A stretch of 25,046 bases of DNA from a virus. The DNA lies in the IMG/VR virus record IMGVR_UViG_3300034418_011916, positions 1 through 25,046 of that record, one strand, 5' to 3'. This document shows, in pieces, positions 9,491-20,648 of this stretch (positions are counted from its first letter, which is position 1; each line of letters starts with the position of its first letter). The position numbers were made by a program, and so were the translations under genes. Below the pieces are notes generated by a model. The model searched no databases and was not told where the DNA came from. It saw only the letters and a program-made list of their open reading frames with translations.

Positions 9491-10300
9491 ATGGCAATTA
9501 AAATAAATAATACTACTGTTATTGATAATAGTTGTAATATTACCAATGCAACTGATATCACCGCTTCAGGAACTATTACTGCTGGAGCTATTAACCTTCC
9601 CGTTACAGGTACTACATTCAGTCCTGCTGATAATGCAACTGGAGTACCAGTTACAACTAACCAAATTTCTATTACATTTAATCAAATTATAGAAAAAGGA
9701 ACGGGTAATATTACTTTAAGGAGTGGAAGTGCCTCTGGTACTGTGATTCAGACAATTAGTGTAGGTTCAGGATCAGTTACTGTTAGTGGTGCAACTTTAA
9801 TAATTATTACTAACGACTTTAATTACTCAACTAATGTTTATGTTGTAATCGATGCTGGTGCAATTGTGGGTGCATTCCAGAGTAATACAATTATAAATAC
9901 CTACAATTTTACTACTGTTGCATTAAATCTTGGTGACTCTTATGGAGGTGGAAATCTTATTTGTAAAGCCAATCCAGTAAGATGGATTACAGCCCCTTCT
10001 GCAGCAGAAATTAGTACTAACTGGTTCAATAGAAATAGCGCAAATACTTGCGCACAAACTATTAGTGGTTGTAGTGGATGGTTTGTTCCAACAATTACAC
10101 AACTGCAGAATCCAGGTTCTGTCTGTAGAGCATATTGGCAAGATCCTAAGGGAAATAGTTTCTGGAGTAACTCAGACTGTGGTTATTTCTACACAATTGG
10201 CCGTGCATGGAGACTTAACTTATCTAATGGAAATGCATACTGTGTTGCATCAAAAACTAACTCATTGAGTATTAGATCTTTTAGGTGTGTCACTTATTGA
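9491..10300 (+). CDS. Short fibre: Big_5-like domain and Cys-rich lectin-like (DUF1566/FGE-like) tip
   Basis: This 269-residue protein is preceded by a perfect late promoter box and a GGAG Shine-Dalgarno site 8 bases before the ATG. It has a fibre-type N-terminus (MAIKINNTTVIDNS). Next comes a bacterial Ig-like Big_5-type segment at residues about 40-140 ('FSPADNATGVPVTTNQISI', then F-N-Q). The C-terminal domain (about 150-269) has the W-F-V-P-T...L, 'FWSNSDCG' and S-x-R-x-F-R-C-V pattern of DUF1566/formylglycine-enzyme/C-type-lectin-like folds. It carries seven Cys, many for a phage protein. The likely role is a receptor-binding tip. I saw no reverse transcriptase or template repeat nearby, so I do not call it a diversity-generating target. 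Confidence 0.8.
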   Translation: MAIKINNTTVIDNSCNITNATDITASGTITAGAINLPVTGTTFSPADNATGVPVTTNQISITFNQIIEKGTGNITLRSGSASGTVIQTISVGSGSVTVSGATLIIITNDFNYSTNVYVVIDAGAIVGAFQSNTIINTYNFTTVALNLGDSYGGGNLICKANPVRWITAPSAAEISTNWFNRNSANTCAQTISGCSGWFVPTITQLQNPGSVCRAYWQDPKGNSFWSNSDCGYFYTIGRAWRLNLSNGNAYCVASKTNSLSIRSFRCVTY

Positions 10301-10326: not shown

Positions 10327-11142
10327 ATGAATAATTTAGATAATTTTCCACACGTTTATTATATCAATTTAGATTCTAGAGTTGATAGAAAAACGAGGAT
10401 AGAAAAGAAATTTGAAGAATATAACATTTCTTATACAAGAATATCTGCTTCAAATTATCTTGGAGATGAACAGGAAAAATGGGAACATTTAGTTCTTGAT
10501 AAAGAAGTTAAATGTAGTGCAAGTGACATTGGTTGTACTTTATCCCATCTAGAAGCCTTAGAAACATGGATTGCAACTTCAAATACAGAAGTTGCAGTCA
10601 TCATGGAAGATGATTGTGACATCACTATCAGTGATTATTGGAAATTTGATTGGGACACTCTAGTCAATAATTTACCTTTCAATTGGGATTGCATACAACT
10701 TTGTATGGATCATCACACCATGATACCCTTTTTTATTCATCCAATTATGAGGGACAGTGGTTCTGCGAGTTGTTATTTGATTAATCGTAATTACGCAGAA
10801 AAGGTTTTAAGGTTACATAAGTTTAGTGATGGTTACAGATTAGTAAATCACATTGGTGATTATGGTTATAGAGAAATACCATCACATATTGATTACTTGA
10901 TATTCGAAACTGGTAAGACGTATTCATTCCCAGTTTTTACTATCGACACCAGTTTTGAATCAGATCAAAGAAATTCTAAATTACATCCAAGACATCAACC
11001 TTGTAGAGATTCTGTTGTTAATTTTTGGAAAAATAAAAGTTCTGCATTTGACTTGGATGATTTTTTTTACTATCACAAAACAAATGACCATTTGATGATT
11101 GATAAACTAGAAATAAATAGTCAAAAATACAATTATACTTGA
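10327..11142 (+). CDS. Glycosyltransferase family 25-like protein
   Basis: This 271-residue protein has the GT25 signature: 'VYYINLDSRVDRK' at the N-terminus (about 10-22), 'GCTLSHLEALE' (69-79) and the acidic motif V-I-M-E-D-D (Glu94, Asp95, Asp96), which binds the metal-nucleotide sugar in this family. GT25 members build LPS glycans, and animal and mimivirus members glycosylate hydroxylysine in collagen. It is the first gene of the modification cassette. A late-like box (TATAAATT) lies 26 bases before the ATG, but no clear Shine-Dalgarno site is visible. It ends in K-Y-N-Y-T, a loose version of the cassette's shared tail. The acceptor is unknown: either host surface glycan or a virion protein. 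Confidence 0.82.
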   Translation: MNNLDNFPHVYYINLDSRVDRKTRIEKKFEEYNISYTRISASNYLGDEQEKWEHLVLDKEVKCSASDIGCTLSHLEALETWIATSNTEVAVIMEDDCDITISDYWKFDWDTLVNNLPFNWDCIQLCMDHHTMIPFFIHPIMRDSGSASCYLINRNYAEKVLRLHKFSDGYRLVNHIGDYGYREIPSHIDYLIFETGKTYSFPVFTIDTSFESDQRNSKLHPRHQPCRDSVVNFWKNKSSAFDLDDFFYYHKTNDHLMIDKLEINSQKYNYT

Positions 11143-11149
11143 GGTAATT

Positions 11150-11761
11150 ATGGATTTGATGAAGATTTATTCTGTACCATTTTGGCAATCAGAATATCCA
11201 GATTTTGAAGAACATCAGGAATTCTTTTTAGAGACGATTAGAAAATATAAAGAAGAAAATACTTCAGAAAATGATTGTGGGTATAAATCACCAGAAACTC
11301 TACATCAAGTAGGAGAGTTGAGACCTCTTTTTGAATATGTCTGTCAAATGGGGTTCAAGGCAGTTTTGGATCTTGATTTTGTTGACTGTGATATTGCACT
11401 TACTTCTGCGTGGTTAAATATTAATGACAGTCGTCAGTGTATGAGTAATGAACATGTACATGGTGACGTATTTTCTGGTGTCTTTTATCTTAAGGCACCA
11501 GATGAAAGTGGAAAGTTAGTCATCCAAAACCCAGCAATTAACCGTATGTGGGATGGATGTAAATTGACTTCACAAAAAAATCAATTTACCGCAGAGAGTA
11601 TAAAAATTGAACCAGTAGAAGGTAATGTTCTTGTTTTCCCTTCATATCTTTCACATTCAGTAGAAACTAATAACCACGACGAAGAAAGAATTTCGATCTC
11701 ATTCAATCTGATTGCACTTCCAAAAGGTTCGATTAATTATTCTCAATCACAAGATGAATGA
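11150..11761 (+). CDS. 2-oxoglutarate/Fe(II)-dependent oxygenase (2OG-FeII_Oxy_5 type)
   Basis: This is a 203-residue protein. Fe(II) ligands fit the family: His104-x-Asp106 within 'EHVHGDVFSGVFYL', distal His169 in 'FPSYLSHSV', and 2-oxoglutarate-binding Arg180 in 'RISISFNL'. Family members hydroxylate protein or small-molecule substrates with O2 and 2-oxoglutarate. The substrate is not evident here. The start used has a GAGG site 5 bases upstream; a second in-frame ATG at 11159 ('MKIYSVPFW') would also suit the family. It ends 'GSINYSQSQDE', so an N-Y-S tail seems extended by extra residues. Its stop overlaps the next gene's start region by 8 bases, consistent with translational coupling. 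Confidence 0.8.
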   Translation: MDLMKIYSVPFWQSEYPDFEEHQEFFLETIRKYKEENTSENDCGYKSPETLHQVGELRPLFEYVCQMGFKAVLDLDFVDCDIALTSAWLNINDSRQCMSNEHVHGDVFSGVFYLKAPDESGKLVIQNPAINRMWDGCKLTSQKNQFTAESIKIEPVEGNVLVFPSYLSHSVETNNHDEERISISFNLIALPKGSINYSQSQDE

Positions 11762-12263
11762 GAATATAATATCAAGAGAGGAATTAAGTTTCATTATGAA
11801 ATTTATTGATATTAATCAAGATTTATTTAAAAATAATGGAACTTTACCAAATAGAAAATATCTAAATCTGCCTAAAGAACCAGATACTCCAAAGTTATTT
11901 TTTGATATTAAAGAAAGAATTTTGGATAAAGAGAACATTAGAAATGATTATATTGATCATTCCGCATACGAAGATTATGTGGGATACATAACTGATGGGG
12001 GAAAAATACATCAACATAAGGATCCAACTATAGATGGATATGATCATGTAAGATTTAATTTATTCTTATCTGTTCCTCGAAAAGGTGGATTTCCAGTGTA
12101 TGATGGAGTAAGTATACCAGTGAAAATAGGAGATTATGTTAGGTGTAATTCAAGTAAAGACTTTCATGAATGTGAGGTTGTGGAAGGAGATGTTCCAAGA
12201 ATTGTAATATCTTACGGAATTTATTTAAAACGAAAAAAAGACAGGTTTATGAGTTATCAATGA
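11754..12263 (+). CDS. 2OG/Fe(II) oxygenase-like protein
   Basis: This 169-residue protein uses the ATG at 11754 (M-N-E-N-I-I), which overlaps the previous stop. A longer upstream reading would run deep into the preceding gene. The oxygenase core is 'GGKIHQHKDPTID' with H88-K-D90 as the HxD pair, the distal His138 in F-H-E-C, and Arg149 in P-R-I-V-I-S-Y. The segment F-N-L-F-L-S-V-P matches the strand after HxD in this fold. It closes with 'IYLKRKKDRFMSYQ', very like the end of the 13069 gene ('LYMKRSKKKLISYE'), so these two are related in their last strands and both carry the strict S-Y-x tail. The substrate is unknown. Confidence 0.72.
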   Translation: MNENIISREELSFIMKFIDINQDLFKNNGTLPNRKYLNLPKEPDTPKLFFDIKERILDKENIRNDYIDHSAYEDYVGYITDGGKIHQHKDPTIDGYDHVRFNLFLSVPRKGGFPVYDGVSIPVKIGDYVRCNSSKDFHECEVVEGDVPRIVISYGIYLKRKKDRFMSYQ

Positions 12264-13072
12264 AATCTTATTATTTTATCTCTGGACTTCCAAGATCTGG
12301 TTCCACATTACTTTCTGGTATCCTAAGACAGAACCCAGAGTTTTATGCTGATATTACTTCACCGTTAGAAGGTATTGTGTGTAACACAATAGACTTTATG
12401 ACTGGGTGTGCAAATAACATGGACATTACAGAGGACCATAGAAAAAATATATTACTCTCAATTTTTGAGGGATATTATAAACATCTAGATACACCTGTAG
12501 TTTTTGACACTTCAAGAAATTGGACTAGAAGTACAACACTTCTTCAGGAACTATTTCCATACACTAAGATGATTTGTTGTGTGAGGGATATTCCTTGGAT
12601 TATCAATTCTTTTGAACTTATCAATAAGAAGAATCCATTCCATACCTCCACATTGATTAGACCAGAAGACAAGGATAATGTGTTTTCTAGAAGTGATGCA
12701 ATGATGAGTAAAGACTGTGGAATTATTTTTGGTCCTTGGACAGGTCTTCAAGAAGGTTATGCAATGAGTCCAGAGATGATTCACTTTGTTGAATATGAAA
12801 ACCTATGTAAGGATCCAGAAAAAGAACTGAGATCCATCTATGAGTTCCTAGAAAGACCTTACCATTCTCACGACTTTGAGAATGTTGAGTATTCTAGTGA
12901 AAATTTTGACAGATATTGTAACCTTAAAAATTTACATACAGTACGAAAAAAAGTAGAATATAAGGAACAAAGGAAAGTATTACCAGTAGATGTATGGGAA
13001 AAGTATAAATCTATGGATATGGAATTTTGGAGAAAAACGAATCAACCTAAAAAGGGTATTAGTTACACATGA
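12260..13072 (+). CDS. Sulfotransferase, PAPS-dependent type
   Basis: This 270-residue protein starts at an ATG inside the ATGA overlap with the upstream gene. The 5'-phosphosulfate-binding loop is plain at residues 7-18 ('ISGLPRSGSTLL'). The 3'-phosphate-binding region is represented by V-R-D-I-P-W...N-S-F-E (about 107-118). Family members transfer sulfate from PAPS to hydroxyls or amines of glycans, proteins or small molecules. 'VEYENLCKDPEKELRSIYEFL' is the usual late-family segment. It lies between two oxygenases in one coupled run, so sulfation of the same glycan or protein built by its neighbours is likely. It ends 'KKGISYT', the strict cassette tail on a fold unrelated to the oxygenases. 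Confidence 0.87.
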   Translation: MKSYYFISGLPRSGSTLLSGILRQNPEFYADITSPLEGIVCNTIDFMTGCANNMDITEDHRKNILLSIFEGYYKHLDTPVVFDTSRNWTRSTTLLQELFPYTKMICCVRDIPWIINSFELINKKNPFHTSTLIRPEDKDNVFSRSDAMMSKDCGIIFGPWTGLQEGYAMSPEMIHFVEYENLCKDPEKELRSIYEFLERPYHSHDFENVEYSSENFDRYCNLKNLHTVRKKVEYKEQRKVLPVDVWEKYKSMDMEFWRKTNQPKKGISYT

Positions 13073-13704
13073 TGGAACACTTTTACTATAAAAATCTAGC
13101 CTATGTTCAAACAAAGGTAGATTCTGATACTTTAGAAAAAATAAAAATAGAATCAAAATTTATATTTGATAATCAAAGTACCTTTAAGAAGGTCAATACT
13201 GAATTGGCAGGGAACTTAGAAAAACAGTATTCGACAAACAAAGCCAAATCTATTTTAGAGTCATATCTAACACCACTCGCAGATGAATATTATAAAATTT
13301 CCCAAGAGACTGAAAGATGTCCTGGTTGGGAAATTGATGACTTGTGGATAAATTTTCAGAAAAAATATGAACACAACCCATTACATAATCATAGTGGAGA
13401 TTTATCATTTGTTATGTGGGTTCAGATACCTTACGATTTAGAAGAAGAACTTTCACTATCAAATTGTAAGGATTCAAATACACCTACAAACTCATTGTTT
13501 GAATTTGTTTTCACTGACTTTTTGGGAAGACTTGTAACCCATAGAGTAGAGGTGGATAAATCTTATGAAGGAACAATCATAATGTTCCCTTCTCTTTTGA
13601 ACCATGCGGTACATCCTTTTCACACTAGTGATGAATACAGAATTTCTATATCAGGGAATTTGTATATGAAAAGAAGTAAAAAGAAATTAATTTCATATGA
13701 ATAA
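13069..13704 (+). CDS. 2OG/Fe(II) oxygenase (2OG-FeII_Oxy_5 type)
   Basis: This is a 211-residue protein. The ATG at 13069 overlaps the upstream stop (ATGA), and a second ATG follows directly. Ligand candidates are His106 and His108 with Asp111 in 'HNPLHNHSGDLSFVMW', distal His179 in 'FPSLLNHAVHPF', and Arg191 in 'YRISISGN'. The pattern N-P-x-H-x-H-x-G-x-L-S-F is typical of phage members of the family. An AAAAAGGG stretch in the preceding gene's Lys-Lys-Gly codons may serve as its Shine-Dalgarno site. It ends 'KKKLISYE'. Since the next gene does not overlap it, the tail is not forced by a start codon here. The substrate is unknown. Confidence 0.8.
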   Translation: MMEHFYYKNLAYVQTKVDSDTLEKIKIESKFIFDNQSTFKKVNTELAGNLEKQYSTNKAKSILESYLTPLADEYYKISQETERCPGWEIDDLWINFQKKYEHNPLHNHSGDLSFVMWVQIPYDLEEELSLSNCKDSNTPTNSLFEFVFTDFLGRLVTHRVEVDKSYEGTIIMFPSLLNHAVHPFHTSDEYRISISGNLYMKRSKKKLISYE

Positions 13705-13707
13705 ATA
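13700..13707 (+). promoter_or_regulatory. Late-like promoter box (AATAAATA)
   Basis: It matches N-ATAAATA, overlaps the stop of the 13069 oxygenase gene and lies 23 bases before the small acidic gene at 13731, one of the few real gaps in the cassette. Confidence 0.4.
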
Positions 13708-13730
13708 GGTGAAAATAATTATTTAAAATT

Positions 13731-14006
13731 ATGAGTGACGAAAAACCCGTAAGAACTTATCAACTTGACCCTGATAAAATTGAAACAATTGAAGATGTTA
13801 GGAAAGTACTAGGTGCAGTGAAATTAAGAATTGACACTGACCATTATATGTTTGATGAACTTACTGAATATTTTACAACCGAAGTAGTGCCCAGAGGTTA
13901 CATCCCACTTTTGAATATGGTTGGAGATGAGAAAGTCGCAAAAATGACTTTTGAACAGATGGAAGAAAAAATAATTGAACTCAAAATCAAAGTTGATGAT
14001 GACTGA
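13731..14006 (+). CDS. Small acidic protein of unknown function
   Basis: This 91-residue protein is acidic and soluble, with no membrane segment or Cys. It begins 'MSDEKPVRTYQLDPDKIETI' and has a helical C-terminal half ending in Asp-Asp-Asp. A late-like box (AATAAATA) lies at 13700-13707, but Shine-Dalgarno support is weak. It is one of few cassette genes without the terminal Tyr tail, and its acidity contrasts with the Lys-rich tails of its neighbours. I do not recognise the family. A scaffold or adaptor role is possible but only inferred. Confidence 0.7.
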   Translation: MSDEKPVRTYQLDPDKIETIEDVRKVLGAVKLRIDTDHYMFDELTEYFTTEVVPRGYIPLLNMVGDEKVAKMTFEQMEEKIIELKIKVDDD

Positions 14007-14670
14007 ATTACCTATTGTAATTGACAATTTTTTTGAGGAGGATTATCAACAGAAAATAGAAGATTCCATGTTCGATTGTATATGGAAAGTTACAATGGAT
14101 AATACACGTTCCATTGATGCACAATCTACCCAAGACAAATATAGAAAATTTTTAGATCCATTTAAATATGATATTTCTCCCTCTATAACAACAAATCTTC
14201 TAAATTCGGTTAATGGGACATTTGAGTTATTTTATCCTGTAGTAGAAAAAGTTTGTAATCATATGGACTTTAGTATTGAAAAAATAAGTAGGTGTATCGC
14301 TGGAATCCAAGGTGTTCAAGTTTTAAGAGAGCAAAATAAACTGTGTGGAATCCATATTAATCAACAAACACCTCATTTAGTATTACTATACTATGTGAAT
14401 GATTCTGATGGTGATACTTTACTTTTCAACAAAACCACAAATGATGTAGAAGGTTGTCCTTTGTATTACGACCACAATGAATGTGACTTTGATATTGATT
14501 ATAGAGTAACACCCAAACAAGGAAGAGTATTATTATTTGATGGAAGAACTTATCATTCTTCTTGTTCACCCACCGAAGGAATAAGATGTATAATAACCTT
14601 GGATATATTTGGTAAGTTTAATGATAAAAGTTACAAATTTCCTGCTCCAAAAAATTATTTGTATACATGA
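13999..14670 (+). CDS. 2OG/Fe(II) oxygenase (prolyl-hydroxylase-like) with H-x-N in place of H-x-D
   Basis: The start is one of two adjacent ATGs (13996 or 13999). The second gives 'MTELPIVIDNFFEEDY', the usual N-terminus of phage prolyl-4-hydroxylase-like oxygenases, with an 8-base overlap on the preceding gene; the protein is then 223 residues. The core 'TPHLVLLYYVNDSDGDTLLF' is characteristic. Distal His186 lies in 'FDGRTYHSSCSP' and Arg196 in 'GIRCIITLDIFG'. The proximal motif reads His119-Ile-Asn121, where Asp is expected, so the iron site may be altered or another residue may supply the ligand. It ends 'PKNYLYT', a loose version of the cassette tail. Confidence 0.8.
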   Translation: MTELPIVIDNFFEEDYQQKIEDSMFDCIWKVTMDNTRSIDAQSTQDKYRKFLDPFKYDISPSITTNLLNSVNGTFELFYPVVEKVCNHMDFSIEKISRCIAGIQGVQVLREQNKLCGIHINQQTPHLVLLYYVNDSDGDTLLFNKTTNDVEGCPLYYDHNECDFDIDYRVTPKQGRVLLFDGRTYHSSCSPTEGIRCIITLDIFGKFNDKSYKFPAPKNYLYT

Positions 14671-14858
14671 GAAAACCTATTGAAGTTTTTTTGAGACAAT
14701 GTTATCATTTAAAGTTACAAGAACTTCCTGATAGGAAAAGACCGTCTTGGAGTACTCACTGTGACTCAAATCACATCAGTCCTGTGATAGATTGGGAAAG
14801 TTATATCAACATAGAAGAAACTAAATCAAAAAAAGTACAGAGACTTTCTTACCAGTGA
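14667..14858 (+). CDS. 63-residue orphan carrying the strict S-Y-x tail
   Basis: This small protein starts at an ATG in an ATGA overlap and ends in a TGA that overlaps the next gene's GTG. The sequence 'MRKPIEVFLRQCYHLKLQE' and L-P-D-R-K-R-P-S-W recalls the N-terminal edge of some phage or viral glycosyltransferases, but no catalytic core follows. The second half is polar and ends 'KSKKVQRLSYQ'. I do not recognise a function. It could be a relic of a larger enzyme, or an adaptor whose role is to carry the tail. Coupling on both sides and clean boundaries suggest that it is expressed. Confidence 0.7.
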   Translation: MRKPIEVFLRQCYHLKLQELPDRKRPSWSTHCDSNHISPVIDWESYINIEETKSKKVQRLSYQ

Positions 14859-15586
14859 AAAATAAATTATATTATCACTTTTTTATTCCAGACATTCCCT
14901 CTCACTGGAAGTTATTACTATATGAACAATTAGATTGTATTGAAGGATCTGAATTGCCATATTTCTGTGAAGTTGAAATGTGTGTTTCTTCCAATGAAGA
15001 AAACTTCAAGGAATTGAAAGAACTTGTAAATGATTATTCATTTCTCAATGTCACTTGGTTTGACACTTCTATTCAGGACAATAGAGAACATTATGAAGGG
15101 ACGACATTATTAAAACTGTACGATGAATGCTCTGATTACGACAATGTTGGATATATCCACAGTAAAGGAATAACCTCATTATCAAAACAAGTTAACCGTT
15201 GGAGAAAAGTACTGGAATATGGGGTGATAGAAAAATGGAGGAACAATATACAGGCATTAAATAATGGGTATGATGTTTCTGGAATTTGTTGGGATGTATA
15301 TGGTGATCATTTCTCAGGAAATTTTTGGTGGGGTAAAAGTTCTTACATAAAAACTTTACCAAGACCAGTTTTACAACAATGGAGAAAACAAATTGTCCCA
15401 GTGGACAGTCATTGGAGTAGTAGATTTAGATACGAGAGTTGGATAGGATTAGAAAACCCAAAATTCAATAATTTATATGAGAATAGATGTATCAGTCGAG
15501 GTGAAATAATAAACAAGTATGTCGTTGATGTAAAAAGAAAAACAATTTTGAACTTTCCTAATGAAAAAACTATTAGTTACTCTTAA
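14855..15586 (+). CDS. Glycosyltransferase-like protein (HSKG / HFSGNFWW type)
   Basis: This 243-residue protein starts at a GTG that shares bases with the upstream stop (CAG-TGA). Motifs 'VGYIHSKGIT' (His102-Ser-Lys-Gly105) and 'DHFSGNFWWGKSSYI' (His152-Trp159) mark a group of glycosyltransferase-like proteins found in phages and surface-polysaccharide loci. The rest is alpha/beta, with W-x-W and Arg/Trp-rich segments ('QQWRKQIVPVDSHW'). The donor sugar cannot be told. It ends 'NEKTISYS', and this tail lies inside a 26-base overlap with the next gene, read in another frame. Its GTG start suggests that the preceding gene's C-terminus was kept at the cost of an ATG. Confidence 0.75.
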   Translation: MKNKLYYHFFIPDIPSHWKLLLYEQLDCIEGSELPYFCEVEMCVSSNEENFKELKELVNDYSFLNVTWFDTSIQDNREHYEGTTLLKLYDECSDYDNVGYIHSKGITSLSKQVNRWRKVLEYGVIEKWRNNIQALNNGYDVSGICWDVYGDHFSGNFWWGKSSYIKTLPRPVLQQWRKQIVPVDSHWSSRFRYESWIGLENPKFNNLYENRCISRGEIINKYVVDVKRKTILNFPNEKTISYS

Positions 15587-16265
15587 TATTGGTGATTATG
15601 ATAAGGATATCACAGGACTTACATTTCCATATATGAGAGAGTACGCAAAAAATATTGGTGCAGACTTTCATGTCATTACTGAAAGGAAGTTTCCAGACTT
15701 CCCATTAATGCTTGAAGAATTTCAAATGTATGAGTTTTCACAAACTTATGACTGGATTATTTTTTTAGATGGGGATTGTCTAATCAATCCAAACACAGTA
15801 GATTTGACTACACTGGTAAAAGAAGACACTGTCATTATTGCAAAATATAATCCACCTGACCATCACTTCCATCCAGAGAACATTGAGGGTGAGTATGATT
15901 TCAAATATTATGCACCATTTTTCTTTCTAGTATTTCATAAGAACTCAAGAGACTGTGTAAAACCTTATGCAAATCCTTATGATTATTATGAACACATCAA
16001 CTTGAATTCTACTCATCCTGAGATGAAAAACTATATGAAAATTAGATCTCATCTCACCGAGAAAGAAATAAAAGATACTCTCATTGATGAATTTTTACTC
16101 ACTCTAAATCTACATAGATACAATATCAAAACTAATACTTTAGTAGAAGATTTCCCAGAACTTTCTGCAATATCACATACAAGTGACGCAAAGGAAGAAA
16201 AAATAAAACAACTAAAAAAAGATATTAAGAGAATGAATTTTATTCAGAGTATTTCTTATTCATGA
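15561..16265 (+). CDS. GT-A-fold glycosyltransferase (DGD motif)
   Basis: This is a 234-residue protein. The N-terminus (K-K-L-L-V-T-L-N-I-G) is a first beta strand. 'YDWIIFLDGDCLI' supplies the DXD motif (Asp70-Gly-Asp72) that binds metal and nucleotide sugar in GT-A enzymes. 'MREYAKNIGADFHVIT' is typical of GT8-like and related families in surface-glycan loci. The region 'YYAPFFFLVF' and 'LIDEFLLTLNL' would form the acceptor half. It overlaps the preceding gene by 26 bases. After a basic helix it ends 'NFIQSISYS', the strict tail. Sugar and acceptor are unknown. Confidence 0.8.
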   Translation: MKKLLVTLNIGDYDKDITGLTFPYMREYAKNIGADFHVITERKFPDFPLMLEEFQMYEFSQTYDWIIFLDGDCLINPNTVDLTTLVKEDTVIIAKYNPPDHHFHPENIEGEYDFKYYAPFFFLVFHKNSRDCVKPYANPYDYYEHINLNSTHPEMKNYMKIRSHLTEKEIKDTLIDEFLLTLNLHRYNIKTNTLVEDFPELSAISHTSDAKEEKIKQLKKDIKRMNFIQSISYS

Positions 16266-17233
16266 GAATTGAAAAAATGACTACAGTAATTTCATTGGGT
16301 GGTGGACTTGGAAGAATTATCAGTGCAATTCCTGCATTACTGAAATATAGTAAAAGTCATCCAGATGAGGAATGGTACGTCACAATTCCTGCATGGAATT
16401 ATGTCACCTGGGGATTTTCAGAACTTCAGAAAAGAACTTTCGATCCTGATGCTCACGGCACATTTGAATTATATTGGAAAGCAGATAAAGTAATTTCTCC
16501 AGAACCATATCAACTTCCTGCGTATTATCGTAATGAAATTTCATTGAGAGAAGCATTTGATGTCTGTATCAATAACTCTACAGATCATAGTGATTTGCCT
16601 CCAATGCAATTGGTTCTTTCGATGCAAGAAAAGAGAATGGCATATGATATCATAGAAATAGCAAAGGGGATTCACAATAAATCTAAGACTATCGTATTAC
16701 AACCTTATGGGTCCACTGCAACACCACACCCGTCTGGTATTTTTGATGATAGTTTGAGATCTATTCCCAAACCAATGTTAGATTATTTTATTGATAACTT
16801 ATCAAAAGACTATAATTTAGTTTACATGGGTGCAAAAGATTTTCATAATGTCAAGACTTATAGACCAGAACCAGACCCAAATATGAGAGAATGGGCAGCA
16901 ATCATTGGGGCTGCAGATTACTTTATTGGTTGTGATTCTTGTGGTCAACATATGTGTAAGGCACTGAACAAATCTGCATCAGTAGTAATCGCAGGTACTC
17001 ACCATATCAATGTAAGTTATGGTAATTTTCATATCATTCAAAGAGATGTTCCCTTTTATCCTGATGCGATGAGAATATCTGGTTTCGAGTCACATATGTC
17101 TTCCAGACTCAATGAACCAAGAATTAATTTCACACAAGAAGAAATTGAGAACTCATATCAAAAAATTATAGAGAACATAGGGGGGAATGAAATAGTGAAA
17201 CCTAAGAAAAGTAAGGGAGTATCTTACAATTGA
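16262..17233 (+). CDS. GT-B glycosyltransferase, family 9 (heptosyltransferase)-like
   Basis: This 323-residue protein begins at an ATG in the ATGA overlap; an alternative ATG lies at 16277. The N-terminal 'SLGGGLGRIISAIPALLKY' corresponds to the donor-side glycine loop of heptosyltransferase-like GT-B enzymes. The C-terminal half has 'IGAADYFIGCDSCGQHMCKA', the position where GT9 enzymes read D-S-G-x-x-H. The length fits the family. It ends 'KPKKSKGVSYN', the strict tail after a Lys-rich stretch. The codons just before the stop include AAGGGAG, which may double as a Shine-Dalgarno site for the next gene's TTG start. Confidence 0.75.
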   Translation: MRIEKMTTVISLGGGLGRIISAIPALLKYSKSHPDEEWYVTIPAWNYVTWGFSELQKRTFDPDAHGTFELYWKADKVISPEPYQLPAYYRNEISLREAFDVCINNSTDHSDLPPMQLVLSMQEKRMAYDIIEIAKGIHNKSKTIVLQPYGSTATPHPSGIFDDSLRSIPKPMLDYFIDNLSKDYNLVYMGAKDFHNVKTYRPEPDPNMREWAAIIGAADYFIGCDSCGQHMCKALNKSASVVIAGTHHINVSYGNFHIIQRDVPFYPDAMRISGFESHMSSRLNEPRINFTQEEIENSYQKIIENIGGNEIVKPKKSKGVSYN

Positions 17234-18039
17234 AAATACATCAAATACTGATAAACGATACCAATAAATTACCAAGTAAGTTTCCAAAGTTTCACAACCT
17301 ATGTTATGATCAATTACATCGATTATATCCAGATGTAGAGTATCATTTGTATTCTGGTGAAGAACTTGAGGATATCATTGAAAACAATTTTCATAGTGAT
17401 GTATTCACTGCATATAAAAAATTAAAACCTTATGCATGTAAGGCAGACCTTGGTAGATTGTGTTTACTATATCTTTATGGTGGTCTTTATGTTGATTTGA
17501 ATTTATATTTTATCAATACCATTCCACATTTAGATAGATTAGAGTTTTTTGCCTTTAGAGATAAACCTAAGGCGTCTAAACAATATTGGGCTGTTCAAAA
17601 TGGTATAATATACTCAGTAAAAAAATCAAAAATAATTAAAACTGCTATTGATTTAATTGTAGACAACTGTAAAACTGAATACTATGGTGTTAATACCATT
17701 GATGTCAGTGCCACACCAGTTCTTGGTAGGGCAATCACATTGTCATTACCAAATTTTGAAATGGCGACAAATGGACAATTGGATTATTTTAAAATATCAT
17801 GTTTCGGTGAAGAAATACAAGATGAGATAAAAAGTATGGGGTATTGTGATGACACGTTAGAAGGTTTTATTATGGATGATGATGACAAACTCATATGTTT
17901 AAAAAAACCATCAGGAGCAGGAGATATTGGGTCTCTGGGTTTTAATGGAACTAACAATTATACTGAGATGTGGCAGAAAGATGATGTTTATGACACATCA
18001 ATAAAATTCACTTCTAAATCAAATCACATGTATCAATGA
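17230..18039 (+). CDS. Glycosyltransferase, OCH1/Gly_transf_sug-like
   Basis: This 269-residue protein starts at TTG, which shares bases with the upstream stop (AAT-TGA). The core 'YACKADLGRLCLLYLYGG' and L-Y-V-D-L-N matches the sugar-binding region containing DXD (Gly_transf_sug, PF04488). Here the DXD position reads Asp89-Leu-Asn91, so the second acid is Asn. 'MKIHQILINDTNKLPSKFPK' is a typical first strand ('IHQIW' in relatives). The middle 'YWAVQNGIIYSVKKSKIIK' resembles the substrate half. It ends 'SKSNHMYQ', keeping the penultimate Tyr but with Met in place of Ser. The last bases overlap the next ATG. Confidence 0.8.
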   Translation: MKIHQILINDTNKLPSKFPKFHNLCYDQLHRLYPDVEYHLYSGEELEDIIENNFHSDVFTAYKKLKPYACKADLGRLCLLYLYGGLYVDLNLYFINTIPHLDRLEFFAFRDKPKASKQYWAVQNGIIYSVKKSKIIKTAIDLIVDNCKTEYYGVNTIDVSATPVLGRAITLSLPNFEMATNGQLDYFKISCFGEEIQDEIKSMGYCDDTLEGFIMDDDDKLICLKKPSGAGDIGSLGFNGTNNYTEMWQKDDVYDTSIKFTSKSNHMYQ

Positions 18040-18398
18040 CGATAGTAAATATACCAATATCTGTGGGAGAACTATTAGATAAGATTTCTATTCTTTCTAT
18101 AAAATCTGAACACACAGAGAGTGAGTATGTAAAGAAAGAACTTCAAGACCTTATTCGAATTGCACAAGAACATCAAGTTTATGATGTATCTTATGTTTCC
18201 CAATTACTCCAGGTCAATCGTGAACTTTGGAGAATTGAAGATGATCTAAGAGTTCTTGAGAAATCACAGACGTTTAATCAAGATTTTATAGAACTTGCGA
18301 GAAGTGTATATAAAACTAATGATCACAGAGCATCAATCAAAAGACAAATAAACAATAAATATGAATCCACATATAAAGAGGTGAAGGTCTATAAATAA
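18036..18398 (+). CDS. DUF6165-like protein
   Basis: This 120-residue protein is coupled to the upstream gene by ATGA. 'IPISVGELLDKISILSIKSE', L-W-R-I-E-D-D-L-R and 'ARSVYKTNDHRASIKRQIN' match, from memory, the DUF6165 family, which often sits among glycosyltransferase genes; its biochemical role is unknown to me. It is almost all helical, with no membrane segment. It ends V-K-V-Y-K, and the Tyr-Lys-stop codons are also the bases of a perfect late promoter box. Its terminal Tyr should therefore not be counted as independent evidence for the shared tail. Confidence 0.75.
   Translation: MTIVNIPISVGELLDKISILSIKSEHTESEYVKKELQDLIRIAQEHQVYDVSYVSQLLQVNRELWRIEDDLRVLEKSQTFNQDFIELARSVYKTNDHRASIKRQINNKYESTYKEVKVYK
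18390..18397 (+). promoter_or_regulatory. Late promoter box (TATAAATA) overlapping a gene end
   Basis: This is a perfect late box formed by the Tyr-Lys-stop codons of the DUF6165-like gene, 29 bases before the ATG of the 182-residue acidic protein. Confidence 0.68.
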
Positions 18399-18426
18399 AC
18401 AAAGAAAGGAGTAAATTAAATTAAAA

Positions 18427-18975
18427 ATGAGTAATAATGATCTAGCATCAAGAGGAATGTTCAGTCCGCCAAATGGTGGATATCCGCAAGTACTTCCAGA
18501 TCATTGGAAAACTAGTGATGAAGCGGAGGACACAACTGACCTCGCAGAACTTACTGATGAAGAACTGAATGCTATTGGTTGGAAAGGTCCAATTCAAAAA
18601 CCAGCAGGTACTAGTGACTTTACTCATGATTATCAGTGGAATGAAGAAACCCGCGAATATGATGCAACTACAATCACTGAATTTGATAGATTAGACAGAA
18701 TTGACTATAATCTCTTTTGGGAGTTACTTTTAGATTGTCCTTACTACTCAAGGATTAAGATTCAATCGGGAGAGTCATTGTCTGTAAACACTATTACAAC
18801 AGAATTTATTGCTCTTATTTCTGATGCGAAAATGGGACATGCCAATGTTCCCAAAATTCAAGAATCATTGACAGATCTTTTGAGTAGTGTTGCTCCTACT
18901 GAAGAGGAAAAAGAATTAATTCAAGAAATCATGACAATAACTGGAATGATCTACAGTTATACTTTACCTGTGTAA
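18427..18975 (+). CDS. Acidic conserved phage protein of unknown function
   Basis: This 182-residue protein has its own perfect late promoter 30 bases upstream and an AAGGAG Shine-Dalgarno site (18406-18411) set 15 bases before the ATG, a rather long spacing. The N-terminus is Pro/Gly-rich and disordered. Then come 'LTDEELNAIGWKGPIQKP', 'YQWNEETREYDATTITEF' and 'FWELLLDCPYYSRI'. The last third is helical and acidic. The general pattern is familiar from cyanophage proteins near fibre genes, but I cannot name a function. A fibre-assembly or virion-associated role is possible given the late promoter. It lacks the terminal Tyr tail of the surrounding enzymes. Confidence 0.75.
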   Translation: MSNNDLASRGMFSPPNGGYPQVLPDHWKTSDEAEDTTDLAELTDEELNAIGWKGPIQKPAGTSDFTHDYQWNEETREYDATTITEFDRLDRIDYNLFWELLLDCPYYSRIKIQSGESLSVNTITTEFIALISDAKMGHANVPKIQESLTDLLSSVAPTEEEKELIQEIMTITGMIYSYTLPV

Positions 18976-18981
18976 TTATAA

Positions 18982-19512
18982 ATGTCACATGAAATTATAG
19001 ATAATTTTCTTGAGAAAGAAGATTTTGACATTATCATCTCCACATTTTTTCCTAAAGACTTAAATAATCCAAACAATTTTACTTGGTATCATCAAAAGGG
19101 AATAGTTAGAAATCCGAAACTAAAACCAACGAATTATGAAGATAATGATTGGATCTATTCCCATGAATTATATTCTAGTGATAATGGGTTAAAATTTGAC
19201 AAGTACTACCATATAGTAAAACCAATATTAAACAAACTCAAAATAAAACGTTTGTTTGATATTCGTTCATACATTCTTGTTCCTACACAAGAACATATTT
19301 ACCACGAATTTCATGTTGATAGAGAAGTAGAGCATAAGGTTGCTTTACTTTATGTCACTCCATGTAATGGATTTACTGTACTCAAAGATATTGATGAAGT
19401 AAATTGTGTTGAAAATCGTATGTTACTTTTTGATGGGAGTATTCAACACCAATCAGTAACATCAACTGATCTCCCTCGATGTGTAATTAATATTAACTAT
19501 GAAAATTTATGA
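18982..19512 (+). CDS. 2OG/Fe(II) oxygenase-like protein
   Basis: This 176-residue protein begins 'MSHEIIDNFLEKEDFDIII', the usual start of small phage prolyl-hydroxylase-like oxygenases. The iron site is intact: His111-Val-Asp113 in 'FHVDREVEHKVALLYV', distal His156 in 'FDGSIQHQSV', and Arg166 in P-R-C-V-I-N-I-N for 2-oxoglutarate. It is closest in pattern to the 20157 gene, which has the same 'ENRxLLFD' segment, so the two are probably paralogues. It ends 'INYENL' and lacks the strict tail. It overlaps the next gene by 14 bases. Confidence 0.8.
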   Translation: MSHEIIDNFLEKEDFDIIISTFFPKDLNNPNNFTWYHQKGIVRNPKLKPTNYEDNDWIYSHELYSSDNGLKFDKYYHIVKPILNKLKIKRLFDIRSYILVPTQEHIYHEFHVDREVEHKVALLYVTPCNGFTVLKDIDEVNCVENRMLLFDGSIQHQSVTSTDLPRCVININYENL

Positions 19513-20155
19513 GAATGGAAACAATTGGTTGATTGAAGACCAATTGGATGATATCTTGCTAACAAGAATGAATGACCTTTTAGATAATAGTTTAGATAAA
19601 CTTTTAAAAGATAAAGAAGGTTACAGTACAACTGGTGAAAACATTGAACAATATTGGTTAATTAATAGAGGTAGTAATTTTTCTTTTCGGGATGAGGAAT
19701 TTAAAAATATAGAAAATGAATACAGAAGACAGATATTAGGTAGGTTAAACAGATCTGAATTTTTGAACAAAAGACGACAGAGTAAAATAACACTCAAAAA
19801 TGATAAAAATTGTTGGTCAGTGATTGGAGGAGAACATTCTTTTCATCAACCACATATTCATAACATAGGATCTTTTGATGGGATTTCTACCTTGGTATAT
19901 CTAAAGGTCCCAGAAACAAACGATGAGGATAGAGCTGAAAATAAACTATTTGCAATATTGGACTGTAATCCAACCAACAAGTATTATCAAATACAAACCA
20001 AAATTGTAACTATTAATCCAACTGTTGGTAAGGTATTAATATTTCCTGATTGGATTGTTCATGGGACTCACCCACAAAGTAAAGGCATCCGTCAGACATT
20101 TAATATTGATTATACACTTACTTTGAAATCAGAATCTTCACTAAATTATTCCTAA
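19499..20155 (+). CDS. 2OG/Fe(II) oxygenase (2OG-FeII_Oxy_5 type)
   Basis: This is a 218-residue protein. The core 'HQPHIHNIGSFDGISTLVYL' gives His119 and His121, and 'FPDWIVHGTHPQSKGIRQTF' gives distal His188 (or His191) and Arg198. The pattern is close to the 13069 and 11150 proteins, so the cassette holds at least three members of this subfamily. The N-terminal 100 residues are helical and charged. It ends 'SESSLNYS' before TAA, a loose version of the shared tail that no downstream overlap requires. The substrate is unknown. Confidence 0.8.
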   Translation: MKIYENGNNWLIEDQLDDILLTRMNDLLDNSLDKLLKDKEGYSTTGENIEQYWLINRGSNFSFRDEEFKNIENEYRRQILGRLNRSEFLNKRRQSKITLKNDKNCWSVIGGEHSFHQPHIHNIGSFDGISTLVYLKVPETNDEDRAENKLFAILDCNPTNKYYQIQTKIVTINPTVGKVLIFPDWIVHGTHPQSKGIRQTFNIDYTLTLKSESSLNYS

Positions 20156-20156
20156 A

Positions 20157-20648
20157 ATGAATTATAAAATCATTGACAATGCTCTTCCACAAGAAGAGTT
20201 TGAAAATATTAGAAACTCTATATTGAATCCAGTCTTTCCTTGGAATCTGACGACAATGATTACAAATGAAAAAGAAGTACTTCCTACATATGCTTCTTTT
20301 TACTTTACTCATATGTTTTGGGATAGATTTAACATAGATCCTCAATATCAAGTGTTTGCACCACTTCTGAATGTCATGGATTGTCATGCACTTGTGAGAA
20401 TCAAAGCAAATTGTTATCCATCCACACCAGAAGTGATAGTACATGATAATCACTATGATTACCCGTTTCCACATAAGGGTGCTATTTTTTATCTCAATAC
20501 TAATAATGGATTAACAATTCTTGAAGATACTGTGAAAGTTGAATCTATTGAGAATCGTTTATTACTCTTTGATCCTTCTAAAATACACACCAGTACAACA
20601 TGCACAGATACTAAGTGTAGAATCAATGTAAATTTCAATTACTTCTGA
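20157..20648 (+). CDS. 2OG/Fe(II) oxygenase-like protein
   Basis: This 163-residue protein starts at an ATG one base after the preceding stop. 'MNYKIIDNALPQEEFENIRN' is the family N-terminus. The iron site is His99-Tyr-Asp101 in 'VHDNHYDYPF', with distal His144 in 'FDPSKIHTST' and Arg155 in 'CRINVNFNYF'. The last strand of the oxygenase fold itself ends the protein, so its penultimate Tyr may belong to the fold rather than to the cassette tail. It is a probable paralogue of the 18982 gene and the last gene of the cassette; a hairpin-rich gap follows. Confidence 0.8.
   Translation: MNYKIIDNALPQEEFENIRNSILNPVFPWNLTTMITNEKEVLPTYASFYFTHMFWDRFNIDPQYQVFAPLLNVMDCHALVRIKANCYPSTPEVIVHDNHYDYPFPHKGAIFYLNTNNGLTILEDTVKVESIENRLLLFDPSKIHTSTTCTDTKCRINVNFNYF

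Follow-up and report, generated by a model that had tools for sequence, protein, structure and literature searches.

A common C-terminal ending in a fibre-adjacent enzyme cassette

We analysed a 25,046-base stretch of DNA from a virus (IMG/VR record IMGVR_UViG_3300034418_011916, positions 1 to 25,046), hereafter the window, in which fibre genes lie on the left, about 17 tightly packed genes in the middle and small genes on the right. Searches against Pfam and PHROGs assigned proteins of the middle cassette to GT25, two kinds of 2-oxoglutarate- and Fe(II)-dependent (2OG-Fe(II)) oxygenase, a sulfotransferase, a DXD-motif glycosyltransferase and DUF6165 (Table 1). An original prediction from the bare sequence had proposed that enzymes of this cassette share a Lys-rich tail closing in [ILMV]-Ser-Tyr-x. 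We read in the sequence all seven strict endings that it listed (FMSYQ, GISYT, LISYE, RLSYQ, TISYS, SISYS and GVSYN), as well as the looser forms KYNYT, NYLYT, NHMYQ and SLNYS. Counting also gave the predicted 13 of 17 cassette open reading frames (ORFs) with Tyr as the next-to-last residue, and a binomial estimate at about 4% Tyr puts the probability of 13 or more at about 1e-15. The 13 include the ends KVYK (18036-18398) and FNYF (20157-20648), which may be family termini rather than tails of this kind, as the ends of DUF6165 relatives read EVKxYK or IHK and a strand (CVININYx or RINVNFNYF) closes the phrog_274 oxygenases.

We then described the ending from 109 distinct tails, defined by I, L, F, V or M at position -4 and Tyr at -2. 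The proposed [ILMV]SYx motif proved too narrow, since Ser occupies position -3 in 28 of the 109 tails, Asn in 23, and the position is otherwise variable. The wider signature, of which [ILMV]SYx is a subset, reads Phi-x-Tyr-x-COOH ([ILMVF].Y.$) and follows a Lys-rich linker. Lys is the most frequent residue at -12 to -6, polar residues (Q, S, N, K, D or E) predominate at the last position, and a variant lacking that position, Phi-x-Tyr-COOH, sometimes occurs. Taken together, these features describe a C-terminal short linear motif, carried by enzymes of an operon-like cassette, in which a flexible Lys-rich linker of variable length precedes the signature; within a single family the linker length and other positions change while the Tyr is retained. 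Tails differ in their codons for Phi, Ser and Tyr (for Tyr, TAT in 81 and TAC in 28), which supports the earlier argument that selection acts on the peptide.

Enrichment and confinement of the tail

Related loci were retrieved with the sulfotransferase, the GT9-like protein, the first oxygenase, a reverse transcriptase and other queries. Those with at least three carriers were called tag-bearing; this grouping is thus not independent of the motif, and the independent tests are a shifted-motif control and counts over whole contigs. With the expectation taken from the motif shifted inward by 1-20 residues, 179 of 711 distinct ORFs were tagged in the 78 tag-bearing loci against 8.3 expected, many of these loci overlapping or coming from one contig and the independent cases being fewer than 78. 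The 227 other loci were at chance level (44 of 3,333 ORFs against 36.4 expected). The motif was counted 141 times at offset 0 against 3-23 times at offsets 1-29. Most cassette enzymes of the tag-bearing loci end [ILMVF]-x-Tyr-x, and the enrichment anticipated in related phages is about 20-fold. Whole contigs gave a similar picture: on four contigs (50-125 kb), the 28 carriers all fall within a single fibre-adjacent cassette per contig, in line with the predicted restriction to such cassettes. On a 243-kb contig, Lys-rich tails are found on just two carriers, which are neighbouring cassette genes, and four scattered matches are about the number expected by chance.

The carriers belong to unrelated families, namely sulfotransferases, GT9-, GT25- and DXD-type glycosyltransferases, carbamoyltransferases and 2OG-Fe(II) oxygenases, and common descent had for this reason been discounted at the outset. 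An origin of the endings by chance, through composition or from a single ancestral C-terminus now has a negligible probability. The loci are AT-rich and hold paralogous families, as such an origin would have it, but chance and AT-rich composition are ruled out by the shifted-motif control, and descent by the unrelated folds of the carriers and by the tree of GT9-like proteins, on which the tag must have changed state at least twice; close homologues are, moreover, untagged.

Comparison of tagged proteins with tagless homologues

We compared carriers with homologues outside such cassettes, which lack the ending, as had been proposed. Because these homologues stop before the tail or end otherwise, the tail is an added extension in four families: the carbamoyltransferases, GT9-like proteins, sulfotransferases and family 4. 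Tagged carbamoyltransferases end in LVIGNYIVKKSEIAYS, whereas relatives about 65-72% identical stop at LVIGNFIVRK. Untagged GT9-like relatives stop at IVKDIEKKVK and the tagged ones run on for 10-20 residues; likewise, the family 4 homologue of the isolate S-SRM01 stops at SPCIDWSKYL and tagged members are 10-20 residues longer. In the sulfotransferases the core, up to FWR, is followed by a linker of differing length and then the tag, and sulfotransferases of other phages at 53-55% identity mostly carry a family-specific end, FAxKQLYKVKG. A retained C-terminus of each family is thereby ruled out by the untagged homologues in the four families. The AlphaFold models of two tagged proteins have pLDDT below 50 at residues 261-270 of 270 in the sulfotransferase and 309-323 of 323 in the GT9-like glycosyltransferase.

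The tag is scattered on the GT9-like tree, and its counts do not distinguish gain from loss. No bacterial homologues of the GT9-like and carbamoyltransferase queries were found in two scans of genome contigs. Apart from the tag, GT9-like relatives in other phages (L225-L229) have a Lys-rich extension ending ..KGF(x), which is not common to the neighbouring genes. We considered this ending, and QLYKVKG on the sulfotransferases, as a second clade-wide tag; in the loci that were read, neither ending appears on any further gene, and both look like family features.

Gene content of the cassette

Table 1. Features of the fibre-adjacent cassette in the window
Feature	Coordinates	Strand	Evidence
Fibre adhesin, Lcl_C-like C-terminus; end SFRCVTY-stop	9491..10300	+	PF13205, E 9.8e-8; PF07603, E 0.0044, below its cut-off
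GT25-family glycosyltransferase; loose tail ..QKYNYT-stop	10327..11142	+	Pfam PF01755, E 4.9e-12; ending
2OG-Fe(II) oxygenase, PF13759, phrog_81, cassette head; untagged family, end ..KGSINYSQSQDE-stop	11150..11761	+	
Protein of unknown family; tail KKDRFMSYQ-stop	11754..12263	+	ending read from sequence
Sulfotransferase, PF13469, TPST-like fold; tail QPKKGISYT-stop; residues 261-270 predicted disordered	12260..13072	+	
2OG-Fe(II) oxygenase, PF13759; tail SKKKLISYE-stop (TAA)	13069..13704	+	Pfam; ending
Small protein of about 90 residues, acidic end, untagged	13731..14006	+	family comparison across loci
2OG-Fe(II) oxygenase-like, phrog_274; loose tail PKNYLYT-stop	13999..14670	+	PHROGs; ending
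63-residue remnant of a family 4 enzyme (254-267 residues); tail KKVQRLSYQ-stop	14667..14858	+	end matches
Enzyme; tail NEKTISYS-stop (TAA)	14855..15586	+	ending; weak similarity to proteins on other phage contigs
Protein with tail FIQSISYS-stop	15561..16265	+	ending
GT9 (heptosyltransferase)-like GT-B glycosyltransferase; tail KKSKGVSYN-stop; residues 309-323 predicted disordered	16262..17233	+	
DXD-motif glycosyltransferase, PF04488/PF05704; loose tail KSNHMYQ-stop	17230..18039	+	Pfam; ending
DUF6165 protein, PF19662; end EVKVYK, probably the family terminus and not a tag	18036..18398	+	
2OG-Fe(II) oxygenase, PF13759; tail ESSLNYS-stop	19499..20155	+	ending; Pfam
phrog_274-type oxygenase; end RINVNFNYF, probably a core strand	20157..20648	+	PHROGs; family ends

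Some carriers of the window could be placed only among their relatives. The protein of unknown family next to the first oxygenase belongs to a family of five members across related loci (family 19), all tagged, and the protein with tail FIQSISYS, for which a Pfam search gave no match, to a family (family 54) with three of three members tagged. The enzyme before it matched nothing in Pfam or NCBIfam. The glycosyltransferase at 16262..17233 models as a heptosyltransferase of GT9-like type, and its matches include WaaC and TibC.

The 63-residue carrier had been regarded as an orphan, a view that the comparison of its ends overturns. Residues 1-28 match the N-termini (82%) and residues 26-63 the C-terminus (63%) of full-length family 4 relatives. 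Given these matches to both ends of enzymes of 254-267 residues, the protein is an internally deleted enzyme, whose middle was lost in frame and whose two ends, the tail included, were kept.

Absence of the tag is also consistent by family. The families of the untagged cassette genes at 11150, 13731 and 18427 are tagless in relatives as well, and in almost every related cassette the counterpart of the first oxygenase likewise opens the cassette and has no tag. Because the 90-residue protein, the DUF6165 protein, the first oxygenase and another, second carbamoyltransferase lack the tag in the same operons, the tag is not a property of position.

The spacing of the genes bears on whether the ending is a nucleic-acid signal, that is, a by-product of stop/start overlap (translational coupling) or a shared recombination sequence, an explanation that we hold to be very improbable. 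An ATGA overlap with the next gene does occur in 54 of 129 tagged genes having a same-strand neighbour. The remaining 75, however, have other spacings, gaps of more than 10 bases among them, so that start-stop overlap or shared DNA was rejected as the source of the ending; in the window, the tagged oxygenase at 13069..13704 has no overlap, the next gene starting 27 bases downstream. Furthermore, four-base overlaps occur outside the cassettes without the tag, codon choice for Phi, Ser and Tyr is not uniform, and the same operons hold untagged families.

The distribution of the tail also allows us to weigh a stability tail, in which Phi-x-Tyr-x-COOH would shield the enzymes from tail-specific or Clp-type proteases or mark them for timed turnover. 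Such a tail would act at the extreme C-terminus, tolerate any fold and require no partner in the cassette. We nevertheless consider it unlikely, because the ending is borne by cassette enzymes only and not by hundreds of other proteins of these phages, because co-expressed neighbour genes are tagless by family, and because isolates with homologous enzymes do without it.

A second carbamoyltransferase, without the tail, was seen amid the tagged genes of one operon at L222:8987-10621, L218:8987-10606 and L303:8507-10141.

The cassette sulfotransferase and a possible modification of the tail Tyr

The conserved Tyr could itself be modified, for example sulfated by the cassette sulfotransferase. 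This enzyme has the PAPS-binding P-loop (PRSGSTLL motif), and the top Foldseek matches, its nearest solved structures, are the protein-tyrosine sulfotransferases TPST1 and TPST2; in fold and P-loop it thus agrees with that class, and its profile matches TPST1 with E 2.2e-7. The adjacent fibre ends in Tyr too. However, the catalytic Glu and Lys of TPST seem not to be retained in the profile alignment, which is weak, and the sulfation reading is weakened by this. TPST sites are acidic, whereas the tails are Lys-rich; nine tag-bearing loci, some of them fragments, show no sulfotransferase; and the same sulfotransferase is present in tagless phages. We therefore judge a role of the tail as acceptor to be improbable.

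The tail as a putative docking motif

Based on the above results, we lean, with restrained confidence, towards reading the tail as a putative docking motif at the C-terminus, by which the enzymes would be collected on a single partner. Its signature keeps to the free C-terminus, where it is more frequent than at shifted positions; it sits on a flexible extension outside the folded domain, as judged by pLDDT and the variable linker (two proteins modelled); and it is common to non-homologous proteins and missing from their homologues in other contexts, as is characteristic of docking motifs. The terminal Phi-x-Tyr would dock into a groove of the partner, probably as an added beta-strand with Phi and Tyr on one face, and sulfotransferase, glycosyltransferases, carbamoyltransferases and oxygenases would thereby be brought into one assembly. 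Their common substrate might be the adjacent fibre adhesin or a glycan on it, and in some relatives the adhesin so modified would also be diversified by a retroelement. Docking on one partner would account for the presence of one tail on unrelated enzymes, its confinement to this cassette, the flexibility and unconstrained length of the linker, and the absence of the tag from homologues that serve elsewhere.

Possible partners are the fibre, a factor that assembles it, a different core protein of the phage and a protein of the host; we propose the window's adhesin as substrate or partner of the cassette. The original prediction had found no such ending in fibre genes, which does not hold for this adhesin: its end, FRCVTY-stop, is a related form with Tyr last. 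Its family was found in 21 of 22 records, and the Lcl_C fibre family is present in 69 of 78 tag-bearing loci against 5 of 227 others. Fibres in tag-bearing loci end [V/I/A]-x-Tyr (VTY, VCY or IFY), once ICYT and once SFYN, and fibres with the same C-terminal pattern in other loci have ends such as VAV and IAV. The Phi-x-Tyr end of homologous fibres in tag-bearing loci, confounded with lineage as it is, provides a lead. The 90-residue protein, present in 46 of 78 tag-bearing and in none of 227 other loci, is a weak candidate for the partner of the tail. A receptor encoded in the cassette was rejected, because none of the non-fibre genes is both present throughout the tag-bearing loci and restricted to them; the Lcl_C fibre comes closest.

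Several observations weigh against docking. No partner was identified by the distribution of non-fibre cassette genes, and the 90-residue protein is missing from some complete cassettes. One tag-bearing lineage has a fibre ending VFL rather than x-Tyr. Shared phage lineage confounds the joint occurrence of tag and fibre, and contigs are shared among many of the 78 loci. In addition, a role in stability or modification would suit most of the same data.

In a wider form, which we offer tentatively and with rather low expectations, the docking motif would be part of an address system: a Phi-x-Tyr-(x) code, carried by the adhesin too, would load swappable enzymes onto one receptor, such that a fibre tip open to diversification by a retroelement is chemically decorated in a combinatorial way. 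Phages freely swap fibre-adjacent enzyme cassettes, and a portable, plug-like end-tag would explain how new enzymes find the common substrate. The tag would then be a simple marker for enzymes acting together and a bait peptide for their receptor, and could perhaps be used as a compact means of assembling unrelated enzymes.

Relation to known terminal tags

C-terminal docking and cargo tags are in general a known kind. The C-terminal tip of single-stranded DNA-binding protein (SSB) and PDZ-domain ligands are docking motifs read by a hub and, like the present tail, place a short hydrophobic or aromatic signature at a free C-terminus behind a flexible linker and gather proteins. The sequence differs, and here one motif occurs on many unrelated enzymes of one phage cassette; in SSB, the tip sits on the hub and not on the clients. 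The hydrophobic last residue (Phi-COOH) of PDZ ligands was not found, the last position being mostly Q, S, N, K, D or E, and neither was the acidic stretch ending Pro-Phe of the SSB tip, the tails being Lys-rich and ending Phi-x-Tyr-x. Encapsulin cargo-loading peptides and microcompartment encapsulation peptides are likewise single short terminal peptides that give unrelated enzymes one destination, but no shell protein was identified here, and the motif and its context in a viral fibre cassette differ. A literature search, with most subscription journals outside its coverage, gave no description of a shared tag with this sequence on a viral fibre-modification cassette.

Phage setting and retroelements

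Because psbA is carried on two long tag-bearing contigs and a tail protein of another is nearest to those of T4-like cyanophages, the tag-bearing viruses are, by these markers, cyanophages. The cyanophage isolates examined have cassettes with the same kinds of enzyme without the tag: S-SSM7, S-SRM01 and B23 carry fibre-adjacent glycosyltransferases, 2OG-Fe(II) oxygenases and carbamoyltransferases of similar families, all tailless, and S-SRM01 is partly syntenic with the tagged cassettes (DUF6165 and sulfotransferase).

As in diversity-generating retroelements with Lcl_C or C-type-lectin adhesins, several tag-bearing relatives have a reverse transcriptase between fibre and cassette; the tag, unlike the parts of such an element, sits on enzymes outside it. 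The window itself contains the adhesin and lacks a reverse transcriptase. A diversity-generating retroelement was also seen in L006, L007, L009, L010 and L223. In L011, the retroelement lies directly upstream of the tagged cassette (L011:2283-4523) and comprises an Lcl_C adhesin, a template repeat and a reverse transcriptase, and the mismatches between template repeat and variable repeat fall at template adenines.

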